Virus record (IMG/VR): IMGVR_UViG_3300023115_000041
Coordinates: 1 to 40,942 of that record
Reading direction: 5' to 3' (one strand)
From: a virus
DNA length: 40,942 bases
Part shown: piece after piece, positions 3,001 through 24,858 of the stretch
How the letters are laid out: each line of letters opens with the position of its first letter
Numbering within the stretch: position 1 is the first letter of the stretch
Made by a program: the position numbers and the translations under genes
Notes under the pieces: generated by a model
Databases searched by the model: none
The model's input: the letters and a program-made list of their open reading frames with translations, nothing else
Told to the model about the DNA's origin: nothing

Positions 3001-6000
3001 TCGATTTTACAAGTATTCTTTCAATAATACTGTCGCTATAATTTATGTTTGAAATAATTTTATTTTTATAATTACCAAGTCCACGTAAGTCGCTATCAAT
3101 AACAATGTCGTCTGGAATATTAGCATTACTAATAATACTTCTATTAGTACTGTCATAATATGTATTTGTAACCCACAGTGGACGCAGTCTTAATAGTGCA
3201 AGTATTTGTAAAATTTTAAATTCGCTTGTTTTAACCCATTCAAATTCTACATTACCCATGTCGCCAAATGTAAAGTCAGCAGCACGTTCCACTGTACCAG
3301 GTGCTGTTACAATACCTGCTGTTACTGGGCCATTTAGTTCGCCACTTACTGTAACTAGTGTATTATTATCCCAATCATATCCTGTATAAGCATATGCTTT
3401 ATTATATTTTGGAGCATCATCTGGATTATTATAGTGTCCTGTTTTTAATGCATTAATTAGCGAGAAACGTCTTGCAGAATTTGTCCAATTATATTTTGAA
3501 TCCCACCAAGTTGGCTTTGTATTATGACCTAACATTTCCCAAGGATGTGTATGAGGACGTACTGTATTGAAATAGTATGTATAGATTCCTTTCCAGCCTC
3601 CGATGCCGTTACCAACACTGCTATAATTCCAAGTAAACTCATCTGCAGAATCAAATGAAGAATCAGTTAGTGTAGTTAAATTTTCAGTAACTGAATAATG
3701 TTTAAAGTCTGGTTCCAATGCTGCAATAAAGTTGTCCCAATTATAAGGAGTAGGTCTGTTTGCATTTGGCATTATTTCTTTATAATCAACTACAGTTGAA
3801 ATATTTTCGTTTAAGTTGTTATAAATTCTTAGTTCTAAATCCCATAATGCAGCATCATTGATACTGAAGTCAACACTAGATCTATTTGTTAAGTTTGATC
3901 CTGATCTTTCAACAATACTTCCGTCATGTCCTTCGATATAACTTGTGTCAACTGTAGGCTGATACATTTTAATAAGTCCTAGTTTAACTGCACTAGGAGG
4001 TACGTAACTTACAGTATTTTGAGGATACCAACGTATGTGTGTAGCAACTGTATTGTTAGTTTTATATGTAACAGATTTAGTTATAGTGATTTTATTATCA
4101 GACAGTGTATAATCAACGCCTTTAACTAAACTATGCCAACCGTCTGCATCTTCAACCCATGCTTGAATATGATTTTTAGCGTCATGATATGTGTTGATAA
4201 TTTGTGGTAAATCAAATACAAGTGTTTCGCCTGATATGCTAACATAGTCTACACTTTCATAATCTTTAAACATTGCCATATTACTATTAGCATATGGACT
4301 GTTAATACTTTTTCCTAAATTAATACTTGCAAGTGCACCGTCAACAATTTCATGTACAGGTGTTTCAATTGGAGTCTGCTTGTGTAATTGTTCTACTTTA
4401 CGTAAGAATTGTTTTTTAAATTTTTTATAACTACGGGCAGCATACTTTAAACTATTATAAACATTAGTGTCAATATCTGCACTCAATTGATTTAGTAGTG
4501 CTGTACTGTAAGGCTGTTTTCTAATTGTTCCATCGAAATCATGTGCGTGTGGCAAATCGACATAGTTGTTGTCACCAAAGTAGTCACCTGTAAAACCTGG
4601 CATACGTGTCATTCCACGACGCAAATGTTCTTGTAAATCTCCAAAGCTAACTTCTGTTGCCCAGTCATTCATTGCATTATATAAATGTGTATCTGCTGGT
4701 ACGAAATTGCCGTCAGCATTAACAGATAATTCTGCATCACTATGCCAGTATACATCTACTGTATCATTATTGTTTGCAGTTACAGTTAGTTTGGTATTTG
4801 CAATTGTATAATTTGTAGATGTTTTACCATTAACAAAAACTTCAACGTTTTTATGATCGGTATTATCATTGATCCAAATTAAACCAGTATTAGTTGTGTT
4901 GCCTACTTCACGATATCTAATAACCGATCCTGTAAATGCAGCATTGACTTGAATTTCAGTGTTATATGCATCTGTGTTTATTTTTGTAAAATTAGAAAGT
5001 ACGTTGCCGTCAAAGTCTGTAAACTCTAAATCATTTATGCTAAAGTTAGATTGTACATAGTATGTTCTATCTTTACTCATAAACAAGTCTGGATTAACAT
5101 CTGATACGTTGTGTAATCTTGTAACAGAATTTTCTGTGCTTGTAGTAGCAAATTTAAATCCGTTTTTGTCTTTGTGAACAACAAATTTATTATCTGTGTT
5201 TAGATCAGTTGTACCTAATTCTACAACAACATCTCCTGTTGCAATAAAACTAGCATGACGTTTTACAGGCTGACCATTTCTTAATAATTTCCAGCCATTA
5301 TAATATTTGTCAGCATCTAACATTTTATAGAAGTAATAACCTGTAATTTCTTCTATGTTTCCTGTGTCAAATGTTTGATGATAAGAATTATTTTCTTTAA
5401 TAACATTGTACTCGTAGCGTTTTGCTCCGAGCTCTAAGTCGAAACTTAATCCAGGTGTATTGCCATAGTCGACATAACGTGGGGCAAACCCTAAACTTTC
5501 ATCAACACGCCCAGAACCTTTTCCATAGTCAAAAATTCTATCGCCTTTGAATGTACTATTTGGATAAACTGTTGTATCTTGTAGTTCTACTAAATCTGTA
5601 TCATATAACTGGAACAATGCACCTTGACTTGTATGTTCTTTTTGTTGTCCGTACACCCATGTTGTGCCATCCCAATACCATTCGCTTCCACTATAAATGT
5701 ATCCGTTGTAGCTATCATAAAATACAGCATTATATCCGTTAACACACATTATTTTATGACCTACTTCATAATCTGTTAAGTCGTATATAAGTGTTAAAGC
5801 TAAATTACCTGTTGCATATCCGCTTACACGGAATATTTTATTATTGTAATTTACATCTGTACAGTTAGTGAATAATACTAGTTCGTTGTCTTCTATTACT
5901 CTAGAATATATTTGATTCCAATATTTACGATTTTCATACTGTGTTGGGTCGAATGCTTCGCCATGTGTTTGCTTACAATCCCAATAAGTTATTTCTCCGC

Positions 6001-16867: not shown

Positions 16868-17463
16868 TAGATAAATCCTTCACCGTACAAGCTACCATTT
16901 AAAAATCCATGTTTACTAAACACTTGCTTTTGCCTGTCAGGATTTTGTTGCTGCATCAAGTCTATTGAAATAGTCTGTAATACTGGAACACTTTGACCAT
17001 TTATTTCTACTAGATCAACACCACTGTCATATGTTGTTGCAAAGTTTCCTACTATTACAGGAATTCTATTAAATTGCTGACTACCGAATGCACTAAATCT
17101 TAACACAGGCGGGGGAGTGCCAGCACTAGGATTAGCTTTTATATCTTTAGTACCATAGTACATTTTAGTAACACTACGTAAAAAATGTATCACTCCTAAC
17201 ACATATGCTAGTTCTTCTCGGGTAGTTTGTGCAAACTGTGCAGTAACTTGAATTTGAGCACTAGGTGTGTTTCTATAACTATGATACGAATAATTTGTAT
17301 GAACTAAGTCGTATGTATTATAGTTTACACTTTGTTGGTATGAAATATCAGGCTGATTAGGAAATAATATTCCTCTATTAGTTGTCAATGATACTGCAGG
17401 TCCTTGACAGTATAAATCAGGTCTGCCTGTTTCTAATCTAGCTCTGTTATCACTGATCGCCAT
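16867..17463 (-). CDS. Tail tube/baseplate junction protein (gp54/gp48-like)
   Basis: A 198-residue protein. Recognisable segments are GRPDLYCQGPAVSL, LFPNQPDISYQQSVNYNTYD, a strongly polar NTPSAQIQVTAQFAQTTREE, then LGVIHFLRSVTKMYYG and PPPVLRFSAFGSQQFNRIPV. This pattern is shared by the tail-tube initiator proteins of marine T4-like phages, annotated as gp48 or gp54; in T4 these two proteins cap the hub and start tube polymerisation. I cannot decide between gp48 and gp54 by eye, and only one such gene is present in this window. The start at 17463 lies inside the upstream nucleotidyltransferase gene (14-base overlap), pointing to coupled translation. The next gene (gp53-like) overlaps it by one base. 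Confidence 0.65.
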   Translation of the reverse strand: MAISDNRARLETGRPDLYCQGPAVSLTTNRGILFPNQPDISYQQSVNYNTYDLVHTNYSYHSYRNTPSAQIQVTAQFAQTTREELAYVLGVIHFLRSVTKMYYGTKDIKANPSAGTPPPVLRFSAFGSQQFNRIPVIVGNFATTYDSGVDLVEINGQSVPVLQTISIDLMQQQNPDRQKQVFSKHGFLNGSLYGEGFI

Positions 17464-18037
17464 TTAACTTATCCAATACAAATTCAAATACTTCTGGATT
17501 GAATGCACCAAAGAAATCTTTAAACACACGTTGCTTTTCTGCTTCTTCTAAATCCATACGCATAGCATTACGGAATGTAGTTGCACTGCGTCCATCATCT
17601 TTAACAGGAACAGTGTAAATGTATCCTGCTTCATCACCTGTTGTTAGCGTTTCACCGTCTTTGTACATTCTGAGATAGCCACCGGTTTTTAAACGTCCAG
17701 CATCTTTTTCACTAAACACAAGTAAGATAGCAGTGTTAGAAGGATCTTTTCCTGTTAAACTTACATCTGGTTTGTAAGGCTGTGTGTTTAAAACTTTGTC
17801 AGCTGGTATATTAAACATTTTGTTTGCAATCATTTTCTTTTCATCAAATGTAAATGGGTCTTTGTCGGGCGTTGCAGTTTTACTAACTGTAGTAGCGATA
17901 AATACGTTATCGGAACCAAACTTACGAACAAGGTCCATATATACTTGAAAATGTCCACTATGCATAGGCTGAAATCTACCGCCGTAAAATACAGCAATAT
18001 CTTTTGCTTCTGCTTCAACAAGTTGCGAATATCTCAT
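17450..18037 (-). CDS. Nucleotidyltransferase, NMN adenylyltransferase/cytidylyltransferase-like
   Basis: A 195-residue enzyme of the HxGH nucleotidyltransferase superfamily. YGGRFQPMHSGH carries the ATP-binding His26-Ser-Gly-His29, and DGRSATTFR (Ser151-Arg156) matches the second (ISSTxxR-type) motif. The superfamily transfers AMP or CMP from NTP onto a phosphate; family members in T4-like phages are often annotated as nicotinamide-nucleotide adenylyltransferase or cytidylyltransferase. Substrate cannot be told from the motifs. It is the first gene of the leftward baseplate operon, with AGGAGAT 4-10 bases upstream of its ATG and the late-type AATAAATA motif at 18063-18056. Its stop lies 14 bases inside the next gene. 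Having an enzyme at the head of a tail operon is unusual; it may be a virion component or simply co-expressed late. Confidence 0.85.
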   Translation of the reverse strand: MRYSQLVEAEAKDIAVFYGGRFQPMHSGHFQVYMDLVRKFGSDNVFIATTVSKTATPDKDPFTFDEKKMIANKMFNIPADKVLNTQPYKPDVSLTGKDPSNTAILLVFSEKDAGRLKTGGYLRMYKDGETLTTGDEAGYIYTVPVKDDGRSATTFRNAMRMDLEEAEKQRVFKDFFGAFNPEVFEFVLDKLNGDQ

Positions 18038-22995: not shown

Positions 22996-23415
22996 ATGCA
23001 ATGGACATACCAAGGTAAACCCGTAGAGGAAATACCACAAGAATTTATCGGCTTTGTATACCTCATTACAAATCTGACTAATGGCAAAAAGTATATAGGC
23101 AAAAAACTATCACAGTTTAAAAAAACTAGGCCACCACTAAAAGGCAAAAAAAGAAAACGTAGAACACTTGTAGAAAGTGACTGGAGAGACTATTGGGGAT
23201 CTTCAGATAATTTGCAAGCAGATGTTGACAAATTAGGCACAGAAAACTTTACAAGAGAAATTTTATATTTTTGTACAACTAGAGGACAACTATCGTACCT
23301 CGAGGCTAAAGAACAATTCGACAGAGAAGTATTACTTACTGACGAATATTATAATGGCATAATAAATGTCCGTGTAGGCGGATCTAAGGCTCTTACTGAA
23401 TCTCTTAAAAAATAA
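22996..23415 (+). CDS. GIY-YIG endonuclease-like protein
   Basis: A 139-residue protein with a GIY-YIG nuclease domain. GFVYLITNLTNGKKYIGKK supplies the paired Tyr22 and Tyr33-Ile-Gly motifs. A basic stretch (KGKKRKRRT) follows, then the segment ESDWRDYWGSS and a helix with LEAKEQF whose glutamate is the likely metal ligand. Stand-alone genes of this type are common in T4-like phages and often act as free-standing homing endonucleases. It lies at the end of the rightward early block and directly upstream of the hairpin-rich element at 23418-23700. No DNA-binding module beyond the catalytic domain is seen, so its target cannot be guessed. Confidence 0.85.
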   Translation: MQWTYQGKPVEEIPQEFIGFVYLITNLTNGKKYIGKKLSQFKKTRPPLKGKKRKRRTLVESDWRDYWGSSDNLQADVDKLGTENFTREILYFCTTRGQLSYLEAKEQFDREVLLTDEYYNGIINVRVGGSKALTESLKK

Positions 23416-23417
23416 CA

Positions 23418-23700
23418 TACCCCCTCTGTTAAAAGCATTGAGGAGGCAGTACTCTGTACTTGCCAACAGAACTTGCTGGGGGACACAAACCAAAAGACCA
23501 GGCTCTACTGCGCCATTGTAACCTGGGAGTAATGCTAAGTTAGTAGCCGTTATTGCAACTTAGTAGCTTGCGTTGAAAGCAGCGTGTAAAGGGGTACCGC
23601 ACAACCGCCTCTGCCTGAAAAGGTTTCGCTATAACGGTGCGTCTGTTTCCGGGGTAATGCTCTGGTTATTTTTTTGTGCTTAGCCGTAACAAGGCTAAGT
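23418..23700. ncRNA. Putative structured RNA element
   Basis: This stretch is visibly richer in G and C than its surroundings and holds no credible gene. Complementary arms follow one another. CCCCCTCTGTT (23420-23430) pairs with AACAGA (23465-23470) and GGGGG (23478-23482), enclosing GGCAGTAC/GTAC-T-TGCC (23445-23464). CCAGG (23498-23502) pairs with CCTGG (23522-23526). CTAAGTT (23535-23541) pairs with AACTTAG (23557-23563). CGCA and CCG (23598-23607) pair with CGGTGCG (23635-23641), enclosing CCT-GAAA-AGG (23614-23623). CTTAGCC (23679-23685) pairs with GGCTAAG (23693-23699). The GAAA tetraloop argues for RNA. I did not match it to tRNA, tmRNA, RNase P or a self-splicing intron. Strand is not settled; a weak terminator at 23649-23675 favours the plus strand. 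Confidence 0.5.
23649..23675 (+). terminator. Weak possible terminator inside the structured element
   Basis: CCGG (23649-23652) can pair with CTGG (23662-23665) through four pairs, one of them G-U. TTATTTTTTT follows at once. The stem is short, so this is tentative. It would end a rightward transcript from the GIY-YIG gene or from the putative RNA. Confidence 0.25.
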
Positions 23701-23791
23701 GCGACTGAATCCAAGGTAATAACTAAATCATAAGAAAAAGAAAGTTCAAACGAATGCAAATGAGTTTGACGATGAGCTTTAGCTCTTCGAA

Positions 23792-24034
23792 TTAAAATGT
23801 TTGAGTATTAGACTTTTTAGATAATGCTTGCTTTTGTCTTTCTGCTTTAGATGACATTGCTTCAACAATTTCATTGAAATAATACATAGGCATTCCCCAA
23901 ACATCATTCATTGTAAAATTACCTTCACTATAAAGCACTAAATCAAAAATTGTTTTTCTAAATTTTTTAGCATTATCTTTAACTGTATTGATTACAGTTT
24001 TTATGTCTCGTGCTTGTCTAAGTTGCTGGTGAAA
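23792..24034 (-). CDS. Minus-1 frameshift extension of gp26 (gp51/tail-chaperone-like)
   Basis: From the T9 run in gp26, the -1 frame stays open for 80 codons to a TAA at 23794-23792. The product reads FHQQLRQARDIKTVINTV, then KKFRKTIFDLVLY and NDVWGMPMYYFNEIVEAM, ending SNTQTF. There is no ATG, GTG or TTG near its beginning; the first ATG is 42 codons in, after the start of what looks like the folded part. Its composition is protein-like. The natural reading is that ribosomes slip by one base on GCU-UUU-UUU-UUC and make a 355-residue gp26 fusion. This matches the known G/GT arrangement of lambda tail chaperones by analogy. A T10 run would give the same fusion without slipping, so a sequencing error has to be excluded. 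Confidence 0.65.
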   Translation of the reverse strand, partial: FHQQLRQARDIKTVINTVKDNAKKFRKTIFDLVLYSEGNFTMNDVWGMPMYYFNEIVEAMSSKAERQKQALSKKSNTQTF

Positions 24035-24858
24035 AAAAAAGCTGGGTTATATTCCAAAGGTGCTTCGAACGATTCTCCGCAGTCTTCGTTACTGCATACA
24101 AATGTAAATTCTTTTTGCATTCCTGCATTGTTAAGAACAGAACTGTGTTTCTTTATAATTTCTATTGTTGCTGAATCTGTATTTGAAAGCCAATTTGTTA
24201 TGCTTTCCATGTTATCAACTACTGTACCGTCAGGCGTGGTGATATTTTCGATTGCATCTGCTAGTACAACAATAGTTGCTCCTGTTGTTTTTTCTAAACT
24301 AGATCTGAATAATTCTTTTGCATATGCAGGATCTGTATCATCTGTAATTTGCGCTGCAATTCTTACACTTTCTGTATTCATAATATGACTAGCATTAACA
24401 CTAGCAAGTGTGTTTGGTTTAAATGTAATACGTAATCCGTTTTGTAATTCTAACTCTACTGGTTGTGTTGGTATATGCTTTACTTGTGATAGTATACTTT
24501 CTAAATCAACACCATATTCGTTTGTCTTTTTGCAGTGCGGACATCCGGCAATTACGTTCATTTCTCCATCATTTTGATTAATTCGACTAGCAATTAACAG
24601 TACATCAACGTCTACTAGACAAATTTCATATGGGTCGATAATGTCTGGAGCAATACTTTTTATAACTTCAAAAATTGCATCTCCGTTATATAATGTGTCA
24701 GGAATTTTAAATAAAACTTCGTCTTTTACACTCATTGGATATATTCCAATTTCAAAATCGTCGGTCAAATTGGGTTTTTGTTTGTACCAATGCCCTTTAC
24801 TGGGCAGTTTTACAAAGATTTCTTTGTTTCTGTAAAAGTGTGATAGCGGATCGCTCAT
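24001..24858 (-). CDS. gp26: Baseplate hub/tail assembly protein gp26-like (zero-frame product)
   Basis: A 285-residue protein of the T4 gp26-like baseplate hub family. The N-terminus has the typical FVKLPSKGHWYK, GIYPMSVKDEVLFKIPD and NGDAIFEVIKSIAPDIIDPY, followed by DVDVLLIASRI. Two cysteine pairs, CPHC near residue 106 and CSNEDC near 262, may bind zinc together. It is the only leftward gene between 18146 and 39915, and is transcribed away from the tape measure. In the zero frame it ends only nine codons after a T9 run (24040-24032 on the plus strand as A9), which is the setting for the -1 extension listed separately. In T4, gp26 and gp51 are hub assembly factors. Confidence 0.8.
   Translation of the reverse strand: MSDPLSHFYRNKEIFVKLPSKGHWYKQKPNLTDDFEIGIYPMSVKDEVLFKIPDTLYNGDAIFEVIKSIAPDIIDPYEICLVDVDVLLIASRINQNDGEMNVIAGCPHCKKTNEYGVDLESILSQVKHIPTQPVELELQNGLRITFKPNTLASVNASHIMNTESVRIAAQITDDTDPAYAKELFRSSLEKTTGATIVVLADAIENITTPDGTVVDNMESITNWLSNTDSATIEIIKKHSSVLNNAGMQKEFTFVCSNEDCGESFEAPLEYNPAFFFTSNLDKHET

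Follow-up and report, generated by a model that had tools for sequence, protein, structure and literature searches.

The window analysed here is a virus record from IMG/VR of 40,942 bases, which carries on its minus strand an open reading frame (ORF) of the gp26 family. The features of this locus are the following:

24858..24001, minus strand: short form of the gp26-family protein (proposed TAC-N), 285 aa, matching PF12322 and phrog_150
24031..24042, minus strand: putative slip site GCT TTT TTT TTC, with the T9 run at 24040..24032
24040..24034 and 24037..24031, minus strand: the overlapping in-phase heptamers T_TTT_TTT and T_TTT_TTC within the slip site
23792..24031, minus strand: extension in the -1 frame (proposed TAC-C), 79 codons and a stop (23794..23792), giving a fusion of 355 aa
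24922..26910, plus strand: divergent neighbour of 662 aa, a probable tape-measure or virion structural protein by position and weak homology
23416..23760, plus strand: conserved non-coding region of about 345 nt, directly beyond the extension, core GGGGTACCGCACAACCGCCT

The gp26-family ORF ends with GCT TTT TTT TTC ACC AGC AAC TTA GAC AAG CAC GAG ACA TAA, which bears out the statement of the initial annotation that GCT-TTT-TTT-TTC lies nine codons short of the gp26 stop. Two slippery heptamers of the type X_XXY_YYZ (T_TTT_TTT and T_TTT_TTC) are thus in phase on the 5' side of the 0-frame stop, and from 24046 the -1 frame runs without interruption to its stop at 23794..23792. The 355-residue fusion is predicted from the reading of TTC followed by a backward slip of one base. 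The forms of 285 and 355 residues and the open -1 frame are those originally proposed, with 79 residues beyond the last Phe in place of the 80 codons given. It was also correct that no usable start codon occurs near the beginning of this frame: counted from the slip, the first ATG is codon 41, not 42, and a GTG is codon 32. The chance of an open -1 frame of about 80 codons ranges from approximately 5e-5 to 6e-3, depending on the stop-codon background chosen. The T9 is the sole A/T run of at least eight bases in the 41-kb window, and the gp26-family gene is the one ORF among the 19 checked in the window that contains an in-phase T_TTT_TT[TC].

The short form matches the T4 baseplate protein family PF12322 (46.6 bits, cut-off 24.5, E 4e-12) and the baseplate hub family phrog_150 (E 2e-14), and its AlphaFold2 model matches models predicted for T4-like baseplate hub assembly proteins in BFVD with E values of 1e-19 to 1e-20. 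Its relatives in named phages, mostly jumbo phages, are 24-31% identical. A nucleotide search of phage records gave no match, and no relatives were found in a scan of bacterial genomes. The gene is best explained as encoding a tail-assembly chaperone in a jumbo phage related to T4.

The T9 run and the open -1 frame that follows it recur in seven further IMG/VR contigs; the initial annotation had suggested looking for them in related phages. Six came from a first scan and one (L035) was found beyond these. L001, L002 and L006 are nearly identical to the window (about 99%), and the others are diverged, with protein identities of 79% (L003), 78% (L004), 77% (L005) and 77% (L035). Across four lineages (the window, L003, L004 and L035) codons 273-276, which form GCT TTT TTT TTC, are invariant; at conserved residues with a synonymous choice, the same four lineages keep the same codon in only 35% of the cases. 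Homopolymers are prone to error, and an assembly artefact would mean that the real run is T10 and the gene a single ORF of 355 codons. This explanation is exceedingly improbable, because the identical T9 recurs in near-identical contigs and in four diverged ones, and the two-frame layout is found, with T6, in relatives sequenced by many laboratories.

The conservation of the site extends far beyond this clade. An in-phase T_TTT_TTY near the end of the gene was found in all 20 non-T4 gp26-family genes tested, compared with one of 117 other ORFs (at least 150 aa) of the same loci. The 20 genes comprise that of the window, those of the cyanophages S-SM2 and P-SSM2 and of KVP40, and those of 16 jumbo loci: Vibrio 2.275.O, Cassandra, 121Q, Atu_ph07, XaC1, CBB, Munch, Serratia BF, Kaldavass, Hallingskeid, XacN1, RAS14, SCTP-2, RaK2, Phosso and XbC2. 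Each of the 19 relatives has T_TTT_TTC or T_TTT_TTT in the -1 phase at a distance of 1-11 codons from the stop, and beyond the slip its -1 frame runs open for 57-80 codons. Ten IMG/VR marine or clade loci agree with this pattern (one more is truncated), as do three further marine loci found by another route. The window group differs from most relatives by its T9, which adds a Phe codon to their T6, and its slip lies nine codons before the stop.

Some more distant gp26-like genes are without a -1 site (L022, SagGXN1; L030, LIS04; L031, immuto; L023, LR756508), and an open +1 (or -2) frame after them could encode a similar extension, as at CCC_CGA in SagGXN1. In L024 (LR756511, about 3640-3930) a gp26-like ORF with GFFFPRRRRK has a long open -1 frame over its Phe run and is likely another -1 case.

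In public records the extension may appear as a separate small gene (121Q gene 595 at TAATG; P-SSM2 gp51; KVP40.0327), and an ATG or TTG does lie near the slip in 121Q, KVP40 and P-SSM2. Accordingly, the extension could be thought of as a free protein of 55-70 residues, made when ribosomes re-initiate past the stop of gp26 or when its translation is coupled to that of gp26. The position of the start nevertheless varies: the window, L003, L004, XaC1, RaK2 and Hallingskeid have no start codon close to the slip, and Cassandra has none anywhere in its -1 frame. Since the starts are not conserved and the slippery heptamer is, re-initiation does not explain the pattern and is very improbable. A separate ATG-started gene for the extension, named in the initial annotation as evidence against a frameshift, therefore exists in relatives only as an annotation, at loci where the slippery site is always kept and the start is not.

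The same 355-residue fusion could also be made by the RNA polymerase, if it stuttered on the T9 so that some mRNAs carried U10. The length of a T9 suffices for the polymerase to slip; the window has no other A/T run of eight or more, and throughout the clade the run is longer than the T6-T7 of the relatives. On the other hand, the run in most relatives of this architecture is a T6 or T7, which is too short for the polymerase to slip on efficiently, and these relatives keep the in-phase T_TTT_TTC that is typical of tandem ribosomal slippage. The ribosomal route is taken as the default because the relatives have T6, and transcriptional slippage as the source of the fusion is improbable. Polymerase slippage could still add to ribosomal slippage in the window clade. 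It is rather unlikely that the run was lengthened to T9 in this clade to let polymerase slippage supplement or take over the ribosomal event, with a TAC-N:TAC-NC ratio unlike that of the T6 relatives. Sites of -1 frameshifting commonly have a downstream stimulatory RNA structure, which is not obligatory. A hairpin search found no conserved stimulatory structure 3' of the slip: the hairpin in the window has a z of about -1.1 to -1.4, and L003, L004 and L035 do not preserve its arms.

Purifying selection acts on the -1 frame, in which the extension evolves as protein. Past the 0-frame stop, the window clade has a dN/dS of 0.16-0.35 in this frame and of at least 0.8 in each of the other two. In the most diverged marine pairs one of the other frames goes down to 0.34. 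In two other groups the -1-frame values are 0.06-0.36 where computable; some Munch and SerBF pairs are saturated at synonymous sites, with pN/pS of 0.16-0.36.

The identity of the extension is clear in the cyanophages and KVP40. T4 gp26 (208 aa) and gp51 (249 aa) both match PF12322 and phrog_150 and are members of the same gp26 family, gp51 having an extra C-terminal domain that matches phrog_634, the family of the baseplate hub assembly catalyst, with an E value of 1e-23. The -1 extensions of S-SM2 (E 1e-28), P-SSM2 (E 1e-28) and KVP40 (E 6e-21) match this same family, and the stretch is annotated as gp51 in P-SSM2. By these profile matches, cyanophages and KVP40 carry the gp51 C-terminal domain of T4 as their extension. 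A profile of the jumbo and window-clade extensions aligned with the phrog_634 domain at an hhalign E of 2.6e-4 (a single comparison) and a probability of 42%; the alignment to the gp51 C-terminal domain is weak and lies at the right place. The window-clade extension alone reached no named profile in the profile search, its best match being phrog_7255, of unassigned function, at E 0.003. AlphaFold2 predicts the extension alone to be all helical, with low confidence (pLDDT 67, pTM 0.37). No relatives were found in the PDB by sequence, where the extension gave chance matches only, or by fold, where the best E was 0.7.

In T4 the short and the long proteins come from two separate, divergently oriented genes, whereas the window has one gene with a slip site. 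T4 gp26 ends in GAG TTC TTT GAG, in which the Phe-Phe is kept as TTC TTT without a frameshift site. Vladimirov and colleagues are said to have found frameshifting conserved in several T4-like groups, T4 itself using the separate genes 26 and 51. The initial annotation had the long form join the functions of gp26 and gp51. The link to these two proteins stands; the joining of two unrelated functions does not, as gp51 is itself a gp26 paralogue with a C-terminal domain added. Consequently, gp26 would be the equivalent of the short form (TAC-N), and gp51 that of the long form (TAC-NC).

The large divergent neighbour had been described as a probable tape measure. Marine relatives carry homologues of the 662-aa protein next to gp26 in the same divergent arrangement (tblastn E down to 5e-10), and jumbo phages have a large protein at the equivalent position, of which RaK2_00088 is annotated as similar to tape measure. 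With hhalign the neighbour matched neither T4 gp29 nor the S-SM2 protein. The gp26-like gene of LIS04 and immuto sits between the genes for sheath/tube and tape measure, the classic chaperone position. By position, weak homology and the RaK2 annotation the neighbour is probably the tape measure, as described earlier, although this identification is weak. The homology of the gp26-family product and its place beside a large virion protein suggest that it would act as a chaperone.

The non-coding region directly beyond the extension (23416..23760) is 94-97% identical in L003 and L035, compared with about 78% in nucleotides for the flanking gp26 gene, and its 20-base core was found in 13 IMG/VR stretches. 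Its relatives are in L003, L004, L035, L051, L053-L055, L057, L060 and L063. In the consensus fold of eleven sequences, 16 of the 36 pairs show double-sided compensatory changes, and the region is probably a structured RNA, a candidate for a new phage RNA family. No Rfam family matched it at the gathering score (L063 was unmatched up to E 1), and phage records and bacterial genomes gave no match either. A sub-threshold hit to mir-876 at 23655-23733 (28.6 bits, cut-off 88) was taken as chance. In 121Q, CBB, Munch and Serratia BF a terminator-like hairpin with a T-run (CCAGC...GCTGGTTTTTTT) directly follows the extension frame, at L009 5066, L012 4066, L013 4057 and L014 4060, respectively. The window also contains a small GIY-YIG-like endonuclease ORF (22996-23415, plus strand), approximately where 121Q and others carry endonuclease VII, and a nucleotidyltransferase-like ORF with a FYGGRFQPMHSGH motif (17450-18037, minus strand) among the baseplate genes.

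With a probability of roughly 0.9, judged from sequence, a programmed -1 ribosomal frameshift makes TAC-N and TAC-NC tail-assembly chaperones from this gene. The best-supported mechanism is a tandem slippage of two tRNA-Phe on the U9, which would give a major TAC-N and a minor TAC-NC product. Most ribosomes would end at 24001 and release the 285-residue TAC-N, the counterpart of T4 gp26. A minority, with tRNA-Phe in both the P and A sites on the U9, would slip back one base (from T_TTT_TTC to TTT_TTT) and read 79 further codons, producing the 355-residue TAC-NC, the counterpart of T4 gp51. Both forms may then coat and deliver the tape-measure protein in tail assembly, by analogy with lambda G and GT. 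The site, its conservation and the selection on the -1 frame are observed, while the slippage itself, its rate and the chaperone action of the products are inferred.

The -1 shift, the two product lengths and the lambda analogy of the initial annotation survived the tests. In lambda, gpG is the short form of a tail chaperone and gpGT the long form made by a -1 shift, with a link to the tape-measure protein. The slip sequence in lambda G/GT is GGGAAAG, and the tape measure lies downstream of the chaperone, whereas the tape-measure candidate of the window is divergent. A TAC locus of similar layout belongs to phage Adele (Pakpunavirus/Vandenendeviridae), which is of a different phage family from the window phage: the -1 shift occurs at the poly-T GTTTTT at the end of TAC-N, and the extension was mis-annotated as a separate hypothetical gene (PMC12846349). 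Closest is the -1 frameshift between TAC-N and TAC-NC of T4-like phages (Vladimirov, Gautam and Davidson 2022, Virology 566:9-15, as presented in PMC10885494 and PMC12846349), which, as far as these two accounts describe it, involves the same gene family, a short and a long form and a frameshift near the end of gp26. As this frameshift was already reported in 2022, the window gene is one more solid case of a known mechanism. The literature search gave nothing on point for a gp26 frameshift in jumbo phages.

Cyanophages, KVP40 and a very broad range of jumbo phages all keep the gp26 frameshift site, and annotation of these phages often overlooks the extension or lists it as a hypothetical gene of its own. 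For annotation, the rule would be to fuse gp26 to the -1 frame at T_TTT_TTY. In the simplest account the frameshifted gene is the general condition, and we infer accordingly the direction of change between it and the T4 gene pair. These results support the view of T4 genes 26 and 51, a short/long pair, as the exception and of the frameshift as the rule.
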